A program made the translations under genes and the position numbers. A DNA stretch of 64,000 nt from Heliocybe sulcata (lineage: Eukaryota > Basidiomycota > Agaricomycetes > Gloeophyllales > Gloeophyllaceae), in contig ML213515.1 in assembly GCA_004369045.1 (NCBI GenBank), positions 560,401 to 624,400 on the forward strand, read 5' to 3'. Every line of letters begins with the position of its first letter. Positions within the stretch are counted from its first letter, which is position 1. Below, in pieces: positions 3,001 through 54,984 of the stretch. The notes under the pieces were generated by a model. It had not been told where the DNA came from and made no database searches. It saw only the letters and a program-made list of their open reading frames with translations.

Positions 3001-4050
3001 TGCTTAGAAAGGGTGCGTCGCTGCTACGAGGCAGGTGCTCTGTCTCTCATCCTCCTTCGCTAATCATGCTCTCTCTAGAGTAGTGATATCCAGAAGTGCC
3101 GCATCTGTGTCTTGTTTTGGATTGTGAACATTGACGCATGCATATAGGACACGGAGAATTTGCTTACTTTCTTGTCAGGGATTGGACACCCCCTCTGTCG
3201 TCCTTCGTCTTCCCTACCTGCCAGTCATTCGTCCTCAAAGCCTGCCATACCATACGGCTCGCAGATGCAGTCGTTGAAGGAAGCGTCAGTTGCGGGTTCT
3301 GTATTCCAAGATGGAATACGAGCGCACAACTATTGCTTCTCGCAACGAATCTGGCGAGCCATCGATGTGTAGTGGATGTTCTAGCCCTCTGGTAAGCACT
3401 TTACCGATATTCTCCGGTGAAGACCAGCGGCATGCTCTATTCATGCGTTCATCACAGATACCTTCATGTAGCTCGGATACGTCACCAGGTCAGCCGGTAG
3501 CGTCTCAAGCTTATGGCAAAGTCAGGGCTTGAGATACGGCAACGACAATCAACCCTATCCCCACGAGATGGCGTCCAAAAGACGCGTCCGTCTTGCTGGA
3601 TCCGCTCAAGGTGCTTTCGTAAAGCTTAGTTTCGTTATGTGGCACGCAGAAATGGTAAGGATTTTTCCAAAGTATTATTTCCGCGTTAACGCTATCCCTG
3701 GATCCTGCCTAGGTAACGCTATCCCTCTCTGTCGCCTCTTCTGCCTATATTCACCCTTTCCACCTTTCCCCCGCTCCAACCTCGTGCATGCCGAATATGC
3801 AAAATACAGTAAAGACGGGGCGGAATGTGACACGCCCGAGCAAGTGATGTCCGAAACGACGCAAGGACTATAGCCTGCACCCCCACCGTGTGCGTCTGCC
3901 TCTTCGTGAAAATCGTCAAGTGATTTGCATAGGTACTGCGAAGGGAGGAGGCGGTCAGCAACGAGCAAGGTGGTAGGTAAGACGGGACACTCACTACAGA
4001 TGCCAGATAACCAGAATGAATAAATTATACGCTGTGCCACCGATGGTTCT
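1..4050. other. gene-poor stretch, nothing recognised
   Basis: No reading frame here looks like a known protein, and none is supported by intron signals, codon periodicity or a family motif. Short open frames exist on both strands but overlap each other freely, as expected by chance. I searched by eye for small CaaX-ending frames like the one just to the right and for seven-helix pheromone receptor motifs, and saw none. Confidence 0.5.
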
Positions 4051-4173
4051 TCATGCGACGACGCAATACGAGTTTCCGCCGTCGCCTCCGGATTCTTCTG
4101 AGACGGGTGGTGAGAGGGTGGCGTCATCCTCAGTGGTGGATGGGGAGGAGAAGAGGACGGTGAAGAAATCCAT
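4051..4173 (-). CDS. lipopeptide mating pheromone precursor
   Basis: A 40-residue frame begins MDFFTVLFSS and ends SYCVVA-stop. The start (Met-Asp-x-Phe-Thr), the small acidic Ser/Pro/Glu-rich body and the C-terminal Cys-Val-Val-Ala are the hallmarks of basidiomycete B-mating-type pheromone precursors. In that family the CaaX cysteine is farnesylated, the last three residues are removed, the cysteine is methylated and the N-terminal part is cut off. The mature peptide would then be roughly the last 10-13 residues before CVVA, rich in Gly and Ser; the exact cut is inference. The frame has no intron. A TATA box lies about 100 bases upstream of the ATG. The longer frame upstream in the same phase is not needed, because this ATG sits correctly behind the TATA box. 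No STE3-type receptor is visible in the window. Homology has not been tested by search. Confidence 0.85.
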   Translation of the reverse strand: MDFFTVLFSSPSTTEDDATLSPPVSEESGGDGGNSYCVVA

Positions 4174-4270
4174 TGGGTCGTGAAGGTGAGACGTGGGTGG
4201 GTTCGTTAAAGTGAGAGAAGCGCGGGCGAGTGCTTTCGACTTGTGAGGGATGCCAGGGTATCGAACGCGC

Positions 4271-4278
4271 TTTTTATA
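4271..4278 (-). promoter_or_regulatory. TATA box of the pheromone precursor gene
   Basis: The minus strand reads GGTATAAAAAGCGCG here, about 100 bases upstream of the pheromone ATG at 4173. The spacing suits a fungal core promoter followed by a 5' leader of roughly 60-70 bases. Confidence 0.65.
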
Positions 4279-4289
4279 CCCTTGCATAG

Positions 4290-7200
4290 TTGTCCCTCGT
4301 CATTCGGTTCATTCGGTTCTACGCAACGAAACCGCACCGGGCGGGTGTGGCGCGAGGTCTGTCTCAGATCCTATTACCATATATGGAAGGTGTCGTGGAA
4401 CGCAGACAATAAGACTCGCGGGATCTCTGGACAATAAGCAATGTCGCAGATATTACGGTGCGTGGTTGAGACAAAAAGATGATCTGTGATAGAGGATGGT
4501 GACGCCGCTGTGCCAGATTTTGAGATCGCTCGAGGGCGACTATCTTGTCGTCAACGGCGCAGAGGCGGTGAGTCTGTGGGCGTAGACAATGGTATAGGTA
4601 CGCGAGTTGCGGCGTCGCGGTCGCGGTCGAAGAAAACAATTCCGGATCATCAAAGGACAATCTGCGCGCGGTGCCTCGAGGCGGACTGCGGCTGTTTCAT
4701 CGGACCCACAGCCAGTAAAGAGGCCTTTGCTTCTGCCATGCCATTTCTGCTGGACAATAGCGATCGAGGGGGAGATGGAAGGGAAGTGCTGGGCGTTGGT
4801 CTCTTGCAGAAACCTAACCTTGAAGCCCGAGTGGACCCGAGTCTGGCTCTGATGATGTCGGCTTGGTAAATCGAGTTGCTGCGTCTCGTGGCTGGTGGCC
4901 GTAGGAAGCCCTCAAAATGTTGGGACGAAGGTGAGTACGACCTGGCGCATGGTGATCTGATTGGCTGACCTGAGCTGATAAGATATGATTCTATATTTTT
5001 TCTGCGCGCGGACGGGCAGTCTGAAAGCTGCCTGTCACAGAATTCTACCTTGAGGCTTTTCTCCGTGCTTACAGTGCCACTCCTAGAATTATGATGCAGA
5101 CCGACAGCCTCTGCATCATCGAGCTGCACACCCCTACCACCGAGTAAAATGTGCCCTGGCGGTTAGTTCGCCACCGAGGGGTTAGTCTATGGATATCCAG
5201 ACTCTGGCAACGACGAGGGGTTAGTGGATGATGCAGGAAAGCTGGTCGAGATGTTTCTCAGGTTCTGCTTAAATCTCACCGGCAATCGCCCCTCAAAGAA
5301 ATGCAGAATTCGAGGGCGCCCGACCGAAAGGCGTATTGTCCTGGATCCCTATGCGGGCATGAGGATCGTAGAGCCGGTCATGTGAGTTATCGAGGGCTCT
5401 CCTCAGAGACAGACGCTGCCGTTTTTCAGTTCGCCTGGTTGCTCTGAGCCTGCCGCGGATGGGCGCTTTGAACATCTCGCTGCCGTCTTAGCGTGTAAAG
5501 ACGCGCTCGAACGTCTTGTGAGCAGAGGCTACAGATGCTAGCAGAGATATGCCTGTCTTATGATGACCCTAGTATGCGACATGCTGGGCGCGCGGGAATA
5601 ACGAGTCTCCTGCGACTCATGACATCCGATTGGCCAGAACGTCTCACATCTCGCGGTGGTACGCGCAACGGGGCCGACATATCAACTCGAATCCGGTCGC
5701 TCGCAACTCCGACGACTCGATGATCTTCACCTATCTACACCCGCTGCGTCCTTGGTTAGTCCCGCTACGTTAAGTCCACAGCGTATGTCGTTCCTTGTAG
5801 CGTCGTCGGTGCGGAGCGGTGGATCTGCAGCGGTATGTTTGGTAGTTATTAGGCATATTCGGTAGGGACGACTACGACTGTCCCGAGCGAGTGTATAGTG
5901 TGTACTGTACGCAGTTAAATTCGTCGCTTGCCAACGGTATTACTGTTCGCGTACCTCGGAGTCTGCATTGCATATCCGGCCGCTATGGCTACGAACGTAG
6001 CTTTCCTCCCGACTCACGGTCACAAACGGCTTCCTCCAACCGCCGCGCATAGACCAGGGTATGGTACCAAGGAACTTTATTTCATCTCCACTTTAACGCG
6101 CCATGATATCAGTCGCCGTCGGGTCACGAAGCAAGCCAGTATGACGGTCCATTTGCACTTTAAATACAACTGAGTATATACTCCAGTTACCGCGCATATA
6201 TTATCTATTTTGCGCGCATATATATCTGACAGCACACATATACATAGACATACTTCCTCATTTCACCTTATAGATGTCTTACGTGCTAAACTTTGGATAG
6301 TTATACCCTTCAGGTCTCGTGTAATGGGGCTCAAGACATGAATCAACATTGAAAAGGCTTGTAAGCTGTGGACTCCCTTACGGAGGGCCAGCGCGTGCAG
6401 ATCGCGTGCCCACCACGTGGTCCCAGTCCCGGTTGACCTTGAACTCCTTCCTTGTGGTGCTGCCATGATATAATGTCTATAAAGCATGGGATTAGTACCT
6501 TAGTCATGTTGAACTCATTGAAGCTTAGTGTCCAACATTCTTGTTGCAACTTCCGATGTGGCGCTTGCCACATTTCGGATTACAGCCACAGCGGGAGTCG
6601 CCGCGTCGTGTCGGGCCGTGCACGTGGAAATCCCAATGCGACAATATTTCCGTCGCAACCCCTTTCCGACCGTTCCTTCCTTCCTGCCGTCCTCATTCCA
6701 GTAAGCTGGGAAGAGGTATAGACTGCAGTCAAGGTCTGGACTGAGGTCCAAGACCTGCTGGTCCACGATTGCATGCCGTACTGCACTCTCTTATGCAGTC
6801 TCAATACATTTCCCGAAGTATATATGTAGATAATATATGCGATGCAAGATATATATGCGCGCCTGACGAATTATGCGCGGCCTTTATTAAAAGTGCAAAC
6901 GGACCGTCATAAGCCAGGGTCAGTGAGGGAAGTTGGGGAGGCGCATACACCAGGGCTTGGCACTAAAAGCCATATTCCACTTTCGCTTTTTACGCGCAAG
7001 AATCAGTCGCTGCTGGGTCATGAAACTAGTGAGAGACGTTGCGGGGAGCAGCAGGATGCTGATGAGGCCGGGCGGGCGCGTGGTCGGGTCTGGTTGATCT
7101 CTGATTGGTTCACCTGCCTGGAACCGGAAGGGCGAGAACGAGGAGCTCCTAAATGGGGTGATGGAACGCCAGACAGCTTCTTCCTCTTTCCTTTGGACCC

Positions 7201-16772: not shown

Positions 16773-17365
16773 TTTCAGAGACAACCTTGAAGCCTGCTCA
16801 AAAGGACAGTCGGTTTATACGCTTTATGAATGGAGGGAACCGTAAGTACCACGCCGGAGTTGCACGATTTGGCCTTTATGTAGCTACTCCAAGGCAGATA
16901 CTCGGATTTTCTACTGCGACTGAAGATTGCGGAAGCAACACAGGTAGAATAGAGGGCTGCAAGCTCAGGCTCGTGAATTGCGGATAGTTGCTGACTGGCG
17001 ACTGGCAGTTATGGCAGTTAGACGCCCAAATCACGATGCGTGAGGCGTGGGAGCTGCAGTATTCGTCCGCTCAGAATAAGGTACTTTCATGGCCAATTCG
17101 TGGCCCTCAATTCGCGCATAACTGAGGCTACGAAACCCATTCTACCGTACAGTCACCTTCGGAACCCGTTGTTTCTTGGCGGAGCGCCTAAACCTTCCAC
17201 CTGACACCCCCATTTGGCGCCCAGATTTATCGAAAGAGCACACTGCTGTACTACACGTAGTGAACATCTGTACGAGCCAAGCGCGCCCTGTGCTCTTCCC
17301 GATTGTTCAAGCTGGATATGATAGGTAGTAAGAATGGATATTATTGGCGGTGCGACTGAGACCAC
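16773..17365. other. intergenic, nothing recognised
   Basis: 5' flank of ALG12 and 3' flank of the DUF6534-type copy. No motif-bearing frame is seen. Confidence 0.4.
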
Positions 17366-19037
17366 TCACGAAGTCAATGCTGAGTTAGAATACACTAGAC
17401 AATGCATTCAGAGTTGACGGAAGCGGAAGTATGCCATTGAATGACGCACCTTTCGAGCCGATAAAATACAACGAGAGAAATGCAAAATTCGTTGGATTGG
17501 AGACGGCGACGTACTGCTTACATGGTCACGAATAATACTTTACGGTAAAGGATGAAGAAGACACGTACAAGGTAAATGTATACTGCTGTCAAGAGACTAC
17601 TCATGATGTCAGTAGACATTCGAGTCTATAGCCAAGCAGTCCCTACCTTGTAGTCAGTCCTGAAGCGACGGTATATCATATTATTGTATTGATCAATGAT
17701 CTGAGTACGTGCTATTAGGATGGTCACTGACAGTAAACACTGAATGTAACGTACCTGGACGTGGACAACCCGGTGCCGCGGGCTCTATACAAATAATAAC
17801 ACATCGCGGCAGCAATTACAGTATCTATAACAACGTAGCACACCGCCGCAGTCAAATCAAGGATCTGGAAATAAGTCAGCGTATCAGAAAACGTGGACCT
17901 CTGGAAAGCAGATACAGAGAGGCCGGTGGGTACCTTGAGAATGGCAGAAGATCGGCCAATGTGCCAGGAAGCAAATGTCGGGTGGCGAAGGCTGTAATAC
18001 AATGAGTCCCATTATCGGTTAGAGGCTTGAATATTCTTACGCCTGGACGACATAGGCTATCTCAACTTGATGAGGATTGACGAAAACGTCGCTAGCTAAG
18101 GAACGCACCGGTGGAACAACCTAATACGCAATGTAAGTCTTATGGTGCAAACACACGTTCGGACTCACCAAATGCGAGCACAATGGGTGCAGACTGTTGG
18201 CCACTACCCTTAGCAAGGCACTGACTGAGGAGTTTACAGTGTGAACTCACGATCACGAATATCCAGTTTCTTCTGCTAACTGAGCGGAAACATCAGGGAG
18301 GCAGACATGTCGACCGCGGACTACCTACATCTTAATATCCGCAGGACGAAGAAGCTACCCGGAGATGATAGATAAATGAACGCGGGGGGGAATACGACGT
18401 ACCATTGAACGAGCGCTGCAACTGCTTGCTGTATAAAGAAACGTCAACTATATCCGAGCATCAGAGAAGGCCAAGATGTACCGTAGGTACAGTCTGCAAC
18501 TATCGCATCGTATTCTTATAATTACAGCCAAGAAGCGAAGGGCTTATGAGAGGCTTACTATAAGGCTCCTGAGTTGGTCCGTTCGAAGTAAGCCATCGTA
18601 TTACTGTGAATATTACGGGACTTACCGATGGGAGCGAGAATAACCGGAAGGGTCACCGTTGCACTTTACAACAAGATAGTACCAGAGGGCATCCAGTACG
18701 AAGCATTCTTGGAGAGTCTCGAACTGAAGAGGATTTTGTACAGAGCCCTAAGTGAGGCGAAGAAGAGGTGCTCACAAAGATCAGAGCAAGAACCTTTGAC
18801 AAACGCAGGTCAATACCCGGATAGCTATCACAACCAGGGACTCACAAAAGCTTTCATAGCCCAGCCGTCCTTATCGTTGTTCATCCAATATATCAATGTC
18901 TGTCCTAACGTTACGCCGTACATTCTATGCAAGCTCAGGCCCATTATGTAGCATCGGACAGGGCACTGTCTCGCTCACCCGGTTGAAATAATGGCTCCGA
19001 TGAGTGTTGTTCCCAGAGTAGTATCGATGACAGACAT
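17366..19037 (-). pseudogene. DUF6534-type membrane protein, copy 1, one in-frame stop
   Basis: Seventeen exons can be placed with all junctions in phase, matching the two other copies exon by exon. The start reads MSVIDTTLGTTLIGAI, followed by MYGVTLGQTLIYW, LDALWYYLVVKCNGDP, CFFVLRILRFSRRNWIFVI, VIDTVIAAAMCYYLY and NFAFLSLYFIGSK, and the end reads VYSNSALTS. These are the landmarks of the fungal seven-helix DUF6534 family. Exon 5 is only 10 bases (18568-18559) and exon 10 only 12 (18120-18109). Exon 14 contains TGA at 17678-17676, just before the conserved Tyr-Thr-Val, where copy 2 has Gly and copy 3 Lys. Everything else is open, so this is either a very young pseudogene, a polymorphism or a base error. 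Function of the family is unknown. Confidence 0.75.
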
Positions 19038-20359
19038 GGCGCTCGAGACTACCTTGACACTGGAGCAGGCGACAGGGATCCTAGCCTGCCGCAGCTTATA
19101 TCTTCTGAGTCTCCCCAAGTTAGAACGAGGATCCACGCTTCTGAAACCAGATGCTCCACACTGTGAAGATTGTTCGACAGGATGAATGATCATTCTGATT
19201 GCGACTCGTGAGACATGCGATGAAGAGCATACAGTACTTCCATTTGATGCTCATCAGACATGCTCTGAGTCAAGCATACAGCACCTCAATAGGCCGCAGT
19301 CAGTTCCACGCTGGCACTCGCTTGACCCACACGTTAAAAGGACGTACTATGATATATGAGTGCCGACTATGACAGTCCCCTCGTTGATATACACGCCCTG
19401 TCGCCAGTGCTACTCACTGTCAAGGAACCGTTGCACGCATGATCATGACAGTGCGAGCCATCACACTGCCTCAGCTAGTAATGAACTCTTTGCATACATT
19501 AGACACAACATCAACCTTTTCGTAGTGACATACCTCTCAAAGAGCTTTCCCGATGCCGCCGCCGGATGCAGGGTTAGGATATTCGAGTGGTTTTCTTATT
19601 TCCTCATAGGTCTCTGAGGACTGTCCGTAAATAGGCGATAGACAGTTCACGAGCAGAGAGTGCACAGGAGTGTTCTTCACTACTCGTGAGACCATGGCGC
19701 AGGTATCAGGAACGGACGGTCATAGATGTGTTCATGCTCCGTCTTGCCAGCGCTGCTCCCAATAGCACAGCCTGTGGAAAGTAGAACAATGAGAGCTGGC
19801 AACAAATAGGCTAAAGGAGCTGGTCCTGAGATGAACCACGACGAGGCTGAACATAGAATCAGGAACATACGCGGAGAACGCAACCAGGTAAGACTCCCGA
19901 AGAAAGGGTTGTAATAACATCATAGATACCCAATATGTTCATTTGCCAGGACAGAGACTGACATGCACATATCTCTCGACGAGGTAGCTCTGCAGCGAAC
20001 CTCTTTACTGAGCATCCGTCGCCTCCGGCCTACGGTTATTTGTTCATACTGACCAACTGGCGCAGGCTGCTTGGCTTCAATACACAGCCCTGAGACCGCC
20101 CTCAATGCAGCTCAGATCATCAGGCCTCAGGATTTGCTGTATAGAAATCGAACTCGGGTGAAGCCCTACCAAGGCCCTCGTTGAGTGCATCGGCATCGGA
20201 CATTTATGCCGGAAGCCACAGGATAGGTCCAGGGCCAGTACCCGAGGTCTCCGGAATCTCACGCTCTCGACCTGAAGCTTGTTGATGATCCATATTCCAC
20301 TGCTACAGACTACGAGGCCGCAGCTCGGGCGGTGTAGAATCCTTTACGGGAACACCACC
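19038..20359. other. intergenic, unassigned
   Basis: The minus strand between about 19920 and 19700 has a hydrophobic open stretch (WFISGPAPLAYLLPALIVLL) that could be an exon of an unrecognised membrane protein. I could not find a start or consistent neighbours for it. The rest shows nothing. Confidence 0.35.
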
Positions 20360-27444: not shown

Positions 27445-27552
27445 GGCAAGATGGCCGAGCGGTCCAAGGCGTGTGACTCAAGCGAAAGCTTGCCCTTAAC
27501 AGGGTCTTCTCATCTGTGTATGCAGGCGGGGGTTCGAATCCCCCTCTTGTCA
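27445..27552 (+). tRNA. tRNA-Leu(CAA) with intron
   Basis: The acceptor stem GGCAAGA pairs with TCTTGTC (one G-T pair), with discriminator A at 27552. The D-arm carries the A box TGGCCGAGCGG and the T-arm the B box GGTTCGAATCC inside GGGGG/CCCCC. The anticodon CAA is at 27479-27481 in a CTCAAG loop, as in fungal tRNA-Leu(CAA), which usually has an intron right after the anticodon. The intron spans roughly 27483-27510. A long variable arm (CTG...CAG) follows, as expected for leucine tRNAs. The 3' half of the anticodon stem is imperfect as I read it, with a wobble and one mismatch. A short T run follows at 27557-27560. Confidence 0.85.
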
Positions 27553-54519: not shown

Positions 54520-54984
54520 AGTGGGCGAAGTGGGTGTTTGGGTCGGAAGCTAGTTATTTGATATGATTAGCAACCTAAACACCACAGTAAACAGAGAGAG
54601 ACATACTGCGAGTCGTCTGTCGCACTTGTTCCGGCTACCAAAATCCTCGTCAGACCCTGCTTCCTAGCCATCGTACATCCAGACCCGTCCATCACCATCC
54701 AATCCCTTCTATCCATCCAAATGACACCGGACAACTTCCACACCACCCAGAATGCCAGCAACAACAGATAGGGTACTCACTTTGCGTGGAGAGGGCGGCG
54801 AGTACCTCTGTTTTTCTTGCTGGCTTGGCTTGTCGTCGGCAACGATAGCGTTCGGTAAAGGCAGAGCGGAGTCTAAAGAGTGCCCAAATGAGGAAGCTGC
54901 GCCCACGTTGGTCTGTGGCGAGTCAACGACGCGCAAGTCTCCTCCGACCTCGAAGGTAACGGCTGCCAGAAGATCGCATTTCTG
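54520..54984. promoter_or_regulatory. divergent promoter region, eS10 and type II membrane protein
   Basis: 465 bases separate the two start codons. The eS10 5' leader probably contains the T/C-rich stretches near 54690-54740 on the plus strand. No defined factor site was recognised. Confidence 0.4.

Follow-up and report, generated by a model that had tools for sequence, protein, structure and literature searches.

Fungal a-factor-type peptides mature by farnesylation, trimming of the aaX residues, carboxymethylation, cleavage and export, and STE3 receptors presumed to have no part in mating occur in many mushrooms. For non-mating-type pheromone-like peptides the consensus is GGGSGNGAYC in the case of Coprinopsis cinerea and GGGSGNNAYC in that of Laccaria bicolor, and passages of the same source describe mature pheromone-like peptides as glycine-rich, precursors as cleaved at charged doublets (EE among them), and the pheromone-like genes of Agaricus as scattered and unlinked to receptors, with an intron in the 3' UTR of their transcripts that is EST-supported for three genes (PMC8305134). 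Farnesylation of such precursors is stated in passages of both PMC8305134 and PMC5473757. According to the relevant sections of two further reports, four mutually similar precursors out of seven are presumed to be non-mating-type in the polypore Pycnoporus cinnabarinus (PMC4101180), and two pheromone-like peptides of Pleurotus tuoliensis lie on scaffolds other than that of the B locus (PMC5755439). On the receptor side, text on Schizophyllum calls the non-mating STE3 receptors orphans and proposes self-pheromones as possible ligands (PMC8161036), and part of a study of Trichaptum treats CaaX matches far from STE3 genes as false positives (PMC8970355).

Here we describe a gene of Heliocybe sulcata that we read as a further member of this known, little-studied mushroom class, such families having been described already. 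It lies in a stretch of 64,000 nucleotides (C13:560401-624400, hereafter the window) of a 952-kb contig, in a genome of 31.6 Mb assembled into 51 contigs.

The precursor frame and its gene family

The initial annotation had described a 40-residue intronless frame running from MDFFT to CVVA-stop behind a TATA box, and both features were confirmed on the minus strand. The coding sequence occupies 4051-4173 and translates as MDFFTVLFSSPSTTEDDATLSPPVSEESGGDGGNSYCVVA followed by a stop, with MDFFT at the N-terminus and GGDGGNSYCVVA at the C-terminus; the TATA box TATAAAAA lies at 4271-4278, with 97 bases separating it from the ATG. Upstream, the frame stays open to an alternative ATG at 4287 (78 aa), but because that ATG sits upstream of the TATA box, the 40-residue start is the likely one. 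The precursor has the layout MDFF...E26-E27...C37VVA, in which both a charged-doublet site and the CaaX form are present. The CaaX prenylation motif CVVA (residues 37-40) falls at 4054-4065 (minus strand), and a cut after the EE doublet would leave the predicted mature peptide SGGDGGNSYC (residues 28-37; 4063-4092, minus strand), which we infer from the processing rule in passages of PMC8305134 and from the conserved C-terminal end in relatives. No RNA structure beyond that of shuffles was found in 3930-4245 of the minus strand (z 0.83).

The MD...CaaX form alone is only moderately unusual, and it is conservation that marks the gene. Within the window, 4051-4173 is the only frame that fits MD, 25-61 further residues and a CaaX end with aliphatic-type a positions; three other MD-starting frames have a cysteine at position -4 and none of them fits (a 27-aa frame at 17334-17417 ending in CIQS, and two nested frames at 54567 ending in CLGC). 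An order-2 Markov simulation with the window's composition gave an expectation of 0.17 loose-form frames per 64 kb, and the stricter MDxF form appeared in 0 of 60 simulations. In actual DNA of this genome, 190 kb in 19 stretches picked for their closeness to relatives and receptors, the loose form occurred seven times: in four family members, in the C11 precursor considered below and in two chance-like frames outside any precursor family. Chance frames are thus somewhat more frequent there than in the simulations.

A search of the genome with the 40-aa protein yielded seven matches including itself, among them two close copies at C35:157766-157885 (93% identity, E 3e-19) and C35:147072-147191 (88% identity, E 9e-18), a relative at C6:781451-781576 (53% identity, E 6e-7), and weak C-terminal matches at C13:198858, C2:2063676 and C26:56743 (E 0.03-0.14). 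With the C6 protein as query all seven loci were recovered (E 0.002 for C26, 0.005 for C2 and 0.098 for C13:198858), and the C26 protein gave five matches, without C2 and C13:198858. The family consists of seven loci on five contigs, two each on C13 and C35 and one each on C6, C2 and C26. Full frames read MDFFTVLF...GGDGGNSYCVVA and MDFFAVLF...GGDGGNSYCVVA in the two C35 copies, MDAFTNTI...EEENGGSGGNSYCTIA in C6 and MDSINTIV...EEESSGKGAFSYCVIA in C26; the second C13 locus (C13:198855-199118) is an 87-aa frame without an MD start that ends in EEGGDGGNSYCVIA; and the C2 copy, which ends in NQENGGSVGNSYCMVA, is probably decayed, because it has no in-frame ATG. The mature end is identical over GGDGGNSYC in four genes, and a DNA pattern for GNSYC followed by [VIM][VIMTA]A and a stop (with TGG also allowed at the stop and serine as TCN only) matched the genome four times, always within the family, with no match for the reversed control. 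The initial annotation had tied its reading to conservation of the MDxFT...CaaX frame in related strains; the comparison made here is among copies in the same genome, where the frame is conserved.

Some members have peculiarities of their own. The last 12 residues of C13:198855-199118 (GGDGGNSYCVIA) differ from the window precursor only at the last-but-one residue. The C6 member ends in CTIA and so has a threonine within its CaaX motif; the authors of the Trichaptum study, in the part of their report that mentions such an end, did not know it from other basidiomycetes (PMC8970355). The region C35:141-159 kb contains several local duplications, including a unit of 2.3-2.5 kb, each copy of which carries a pheromone-like gene, the copies lying 10.7 kb apart.

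Within the family, the window locus is one of the dispersed duplicates, and it shares with the two C35 copies a block (3797-4538) of 71-73% DNA identity. Both C35 copies have TATAAAAGG at the position aligned with the window TATA box. The locus was also considered as a common repeat and this was set aside, as 3300-4700 matched itself and the two C35 copies only (about 700 bases), in a search that skips very common words and so does not by itself prove rarity.

Downstream of the coding sequence, a 59-base 3'-UTR intron (GTGAGT...GCTGAC...TTCGCAG) is predicted at 3936-3994 of the minus strand, its first base lying 57 bases past the stop, and splicing there is a prediction from a pattern of GTGAGT or GTAAGT, a CTRAY branch site and YAG that spans 53-62 bases and starts 33-57 bases after the stop. 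Six of the eight genes examined have this pattern, all of them within the family (six of its seven loci); it is absent from C13:198855 and, in this form, from the C11 precursor. At 20,000 random points, the chance of meeting the pattern at such a distance was 1.8% per point in a loose version and 0.4% in a strict one.

Upstream, the candidate motif TTATTGTC stands at 4405-4412 and again at 4430-4437 (minus strand). Two copies precede the window gene and likewise each C35 copy, one copy each precedes C2 and C26, and none was found within 400 bases upstream of C6, C13:198855 or C11, the expectation being 0.03 per 400 bases. Because it was in the window gene and its two C35 copies that the motif was first picked out, only the other five genes count as a test (two of five). 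It was likewise found in two of the five STE3 genes, within 800 bases before the first profile match. The motif (GACAATAA) presumably resembles an HMG-box site, and a literature search found no publication joining basidiomycete pheromone promoters with HMG and ACAAT; we treat it as a lead.

Receptors, mating loci and the mating-type label

A profile search of the genome for STE3 (PF02076) returned at least 17 matches, at least 13 on C11 and at least four on C16. The matches listed fall in five places, each of which we read as one gene; four of these lie on C11 (797.7-798.7, 801.2-802.2, 831.8-833.0 and 835.7-836.8 kb) and a lone one at C16:131.9-132.9 kb (131927-132934). Among the matches listed, none lies in the window, which bears out the initial remark that no STE3 receptor is seen in these 64 kb, and none lies anywhere else on the 952-kb C13, so that the receptor suggested to lie left of base 1 did not appear when this was checked. 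Conversely, protein searches of the genome placed no family locus on the STE3-bearing contigs C11 or C16.

The receptors on C11 form a 39-kb cluster, and about 20 kb beyond the last of them lies a precursor, C11:857264-857392 (MDAFDAVYILSESSVSEGETQTEPLVDSEHCGGGAMSFCVIS), the sole MD...CaaX precursor in the 90 kb fetched around these receptors by a scan that would miss precursors with introns or unusual ends. As a protein it scored 23.3 bits against the Pfam Pheromone model PF08015, passing the gathering cut-off of 22; in a six-frame genome search with PF08015 its place scored 19.5 bits, below that cut-off, and was the only place reported. A protein search found no relatives of it elsewhere in the genome. 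It is likely a mating-type precursor, and C11:797738-836776 together with C11:857264-857392 is likely the PR (B) mating locus. The window protein reached 13.6 bits against PF08015, short of the cut-off of 22, and four other family proteins gave no match.

The homeodomain (A) mating locus is likely C1:906.7-912.2 kb, where a MIP-like M3 peptidase adjoins homeodomain matches (C1:906664-912194). A link of the window gene to this locus was considered and dropped: two family searches found no homeodomain match on C13, and the MIP-like peptidase and homeodomain matches are on C1. The lone C16 STE3 gene, a candidate non-mating receptor, lies 38 kb from a Homeobox_KN match (C16:93902-94009), on a contig that differs from those of both likely mating loci. 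Elsewhere in the window, no mating-related Pfam domain was found in 16 distinct frames of the 50 listed, a scan in which the precursor frame alone represented the first 8 kb. An Rfam scan of the window returned nothing but a tRNA match at 27445-27552, perhaps an intron-bearing tRNA, which spans 108 bases against a model of 71 positions and was not reported by ARAGORN.

These results bear on the name given to the gene at the outset, a B-mating-type pheromone precursor. The farnesylated-precursor form described there stands, joined now by conserved copies; the B-mating-type label is not supported, as no STE3 match listed lies on C13, the PF08015 score falls below the cut-off and C11 has a different precursor. 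It is improbable that the gene is a true B-mating-type precursor that still confers mating specificity after moving away from its receptor or being split from it in the assembly. Its MDxF start, CaaX end and size do match the B-locus precursors in the part of PMC5473757 that lists them, the 51 contigs of this assembly may be linked at chromosome scale, and one MD...CaaX precursor in 90 kb around the C11 receptors is fewer than many B loci have; but that cluster owns a precursor that passes PF08015 as a protein, no STE3 match among those listed shares the window's 952-kb contig, and were the peptide to act as a compatible mating pheromone, genes on several contigs with similar mature ends, identical over GGDGGNSYC in four of them, would imply constant self-signalling. 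With the assembly taken as one haploid set, the peptide is unlikely to carry mating-type specificity: similar or identical mature ends come from genes on several contigs, none of which was found next to a receptor.

Selection on the coding frame

The window gene differs from the copy at C35:157 kb by 11 silent changes and three amino-acid replacements (dN/dS 0.068, Fisher P 1e-5) and from the copy at C35:147 kb by 14 and five (dN/dS 0.080, Fisher P 1e-6); the two C35 copies compared together show three and two (P 0.10), a pair too alike to be informative. Over the coding sequence the window locus is 85-89% identical to the C35 copies; the promoter reaches 69-71% and the downstream sequence 61-63%. 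Identity drops to 54-59% for the predicted intron, is 81-82% for the UTR stretch that precedes it, and at 81-83% comes close to the coding level for the flanks of the coding sequence (75 bases before and 56 after). The frame is very probably a gene rather than a product of chance, and we take it as one because it is conserved among the copies and its changes are mostly silent (dN/dS 0.07-0.08).

The gene might instead be a disused relic, a duplicate of some earlier pheromone gene that is now in decay, and the C2 copy without an in-frame ATG indicates that some copies do decay; we consider this quite unlikely for the window gene, given dN/dS values of 0.068 and 0.080 and an intact start, CaaX motif and TATA box. 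That the frame is open by chance, or that the gene lies on the opposite strand (e.g., the 55-aa plus-strand frame at 4016-4183), is very unlikely indeed. Antisense frame f1 is open in four of the five genes compared (the window gene, the C35 pair and C26), and its dN/dS is 0.148 (window versus C35:157), but it is stopped in C6; the sense frame runs uninterrupted through every one of the five, and its dN/dS is lower (0.068). A scan of the minus strand found the TATA box and the intron pattern arranged as for a gene on that strand, and none of the 60 simulations produced a strict MDxF...CaaX frame.

Proposed role and comparison with known pheromone-like families

Copy number, dispersal, the similar mature end, the 3'-UTR intron pattern and the missing receptor combine to place the window gene, with good though not full confidence, in the non-mating-type pheromone-like class, its product probably being a farnesylated peptide that serves as a self-signal whatever the mating type. 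If the gene is expressed, translation would give the 40-aa precursor, which would be farnesylated at C37, lose VVA and be carboxymethylated, and cleavage after the EE doublet would release about SGGDGGNSYC-farnesyl. The farnesylated peptide might then be exported and sensed by an STE3-type receptor, and the most likely role on our analysis would be a constant self-signal that feeds through that receptor into the pheromone pathway and bears on growth, nuclear movement or fruiting, not partner recognition.

At least five intact family genes lie on four contigs, with the intron pattern in all five and TTATTGTC in four. More tentatively, the family may form part of a mating-type-independent module in which a near-constant farnesylated peptide has a receptor of its own away from the PR cluster, the lone C16 STE3 gene being the candidate; this is possible but doubtful, and if true, the module would supply a ligand for a receptor class described as orphans. 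The family is under purifying selection on contigs without a listed receptor match, which argues that CaaX matches far from receptors can be real genes, and it gives a defined peptide to try against non-mating receptors.

Likeness to the published consensus peptides, taken alone, is weak to moderate. SGGDGGNSYC agrees with the Laccaria consensus at six of 10 positions (equalled by 4% of shuffles) and with that of Coprinopsis at five of 10 (21%); the predicted mature peptide of C6 agrees at seven of 10 (1.5%) and six of 10, respectively. A literature search of main texts, with supplements and figures outside its reach, found none pairing GNSYC with pheromone.

Overall, the B-locus (PR-locus) precursors of PF08015 resemble the window protein in length, MDxF start and CaaX end; they differ in that the window protein scores under the cut-off with no STE3 match listed on its contig, and in that B-locus precursors are divergent whereas the mature ends of the window family are similar to one another. 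Taken by description, the short CAAX precursors of Pycnoporus cinnabarinus are alike in resembling one another (PMC4101180), and those of Pleurotus tuoliensis in lying away from receptor scaffolds (PMC5755439), as far as the sections on them go. With the Coprinopsis, Laccaria and Agaricus class, as passages of PMC8305134 present it, the window family shares a short MD precursor, a charged doublet, a glycine-rich end, YC with CaaX, several dispersed copies, no linked receptor and a 3'-UTR intron (predicted in the window family). It differs from Coprinopsis and Laccaria in SGGDGGNSYC versus GGGSGN[G/N]AYC, a comparison of consensus peptides from those passages rather than of aligned precursors, and it is set apart by two near-identical copies that share a contig at a distance of 10.7 kb and by a locus, C13:198855, without an MD start.
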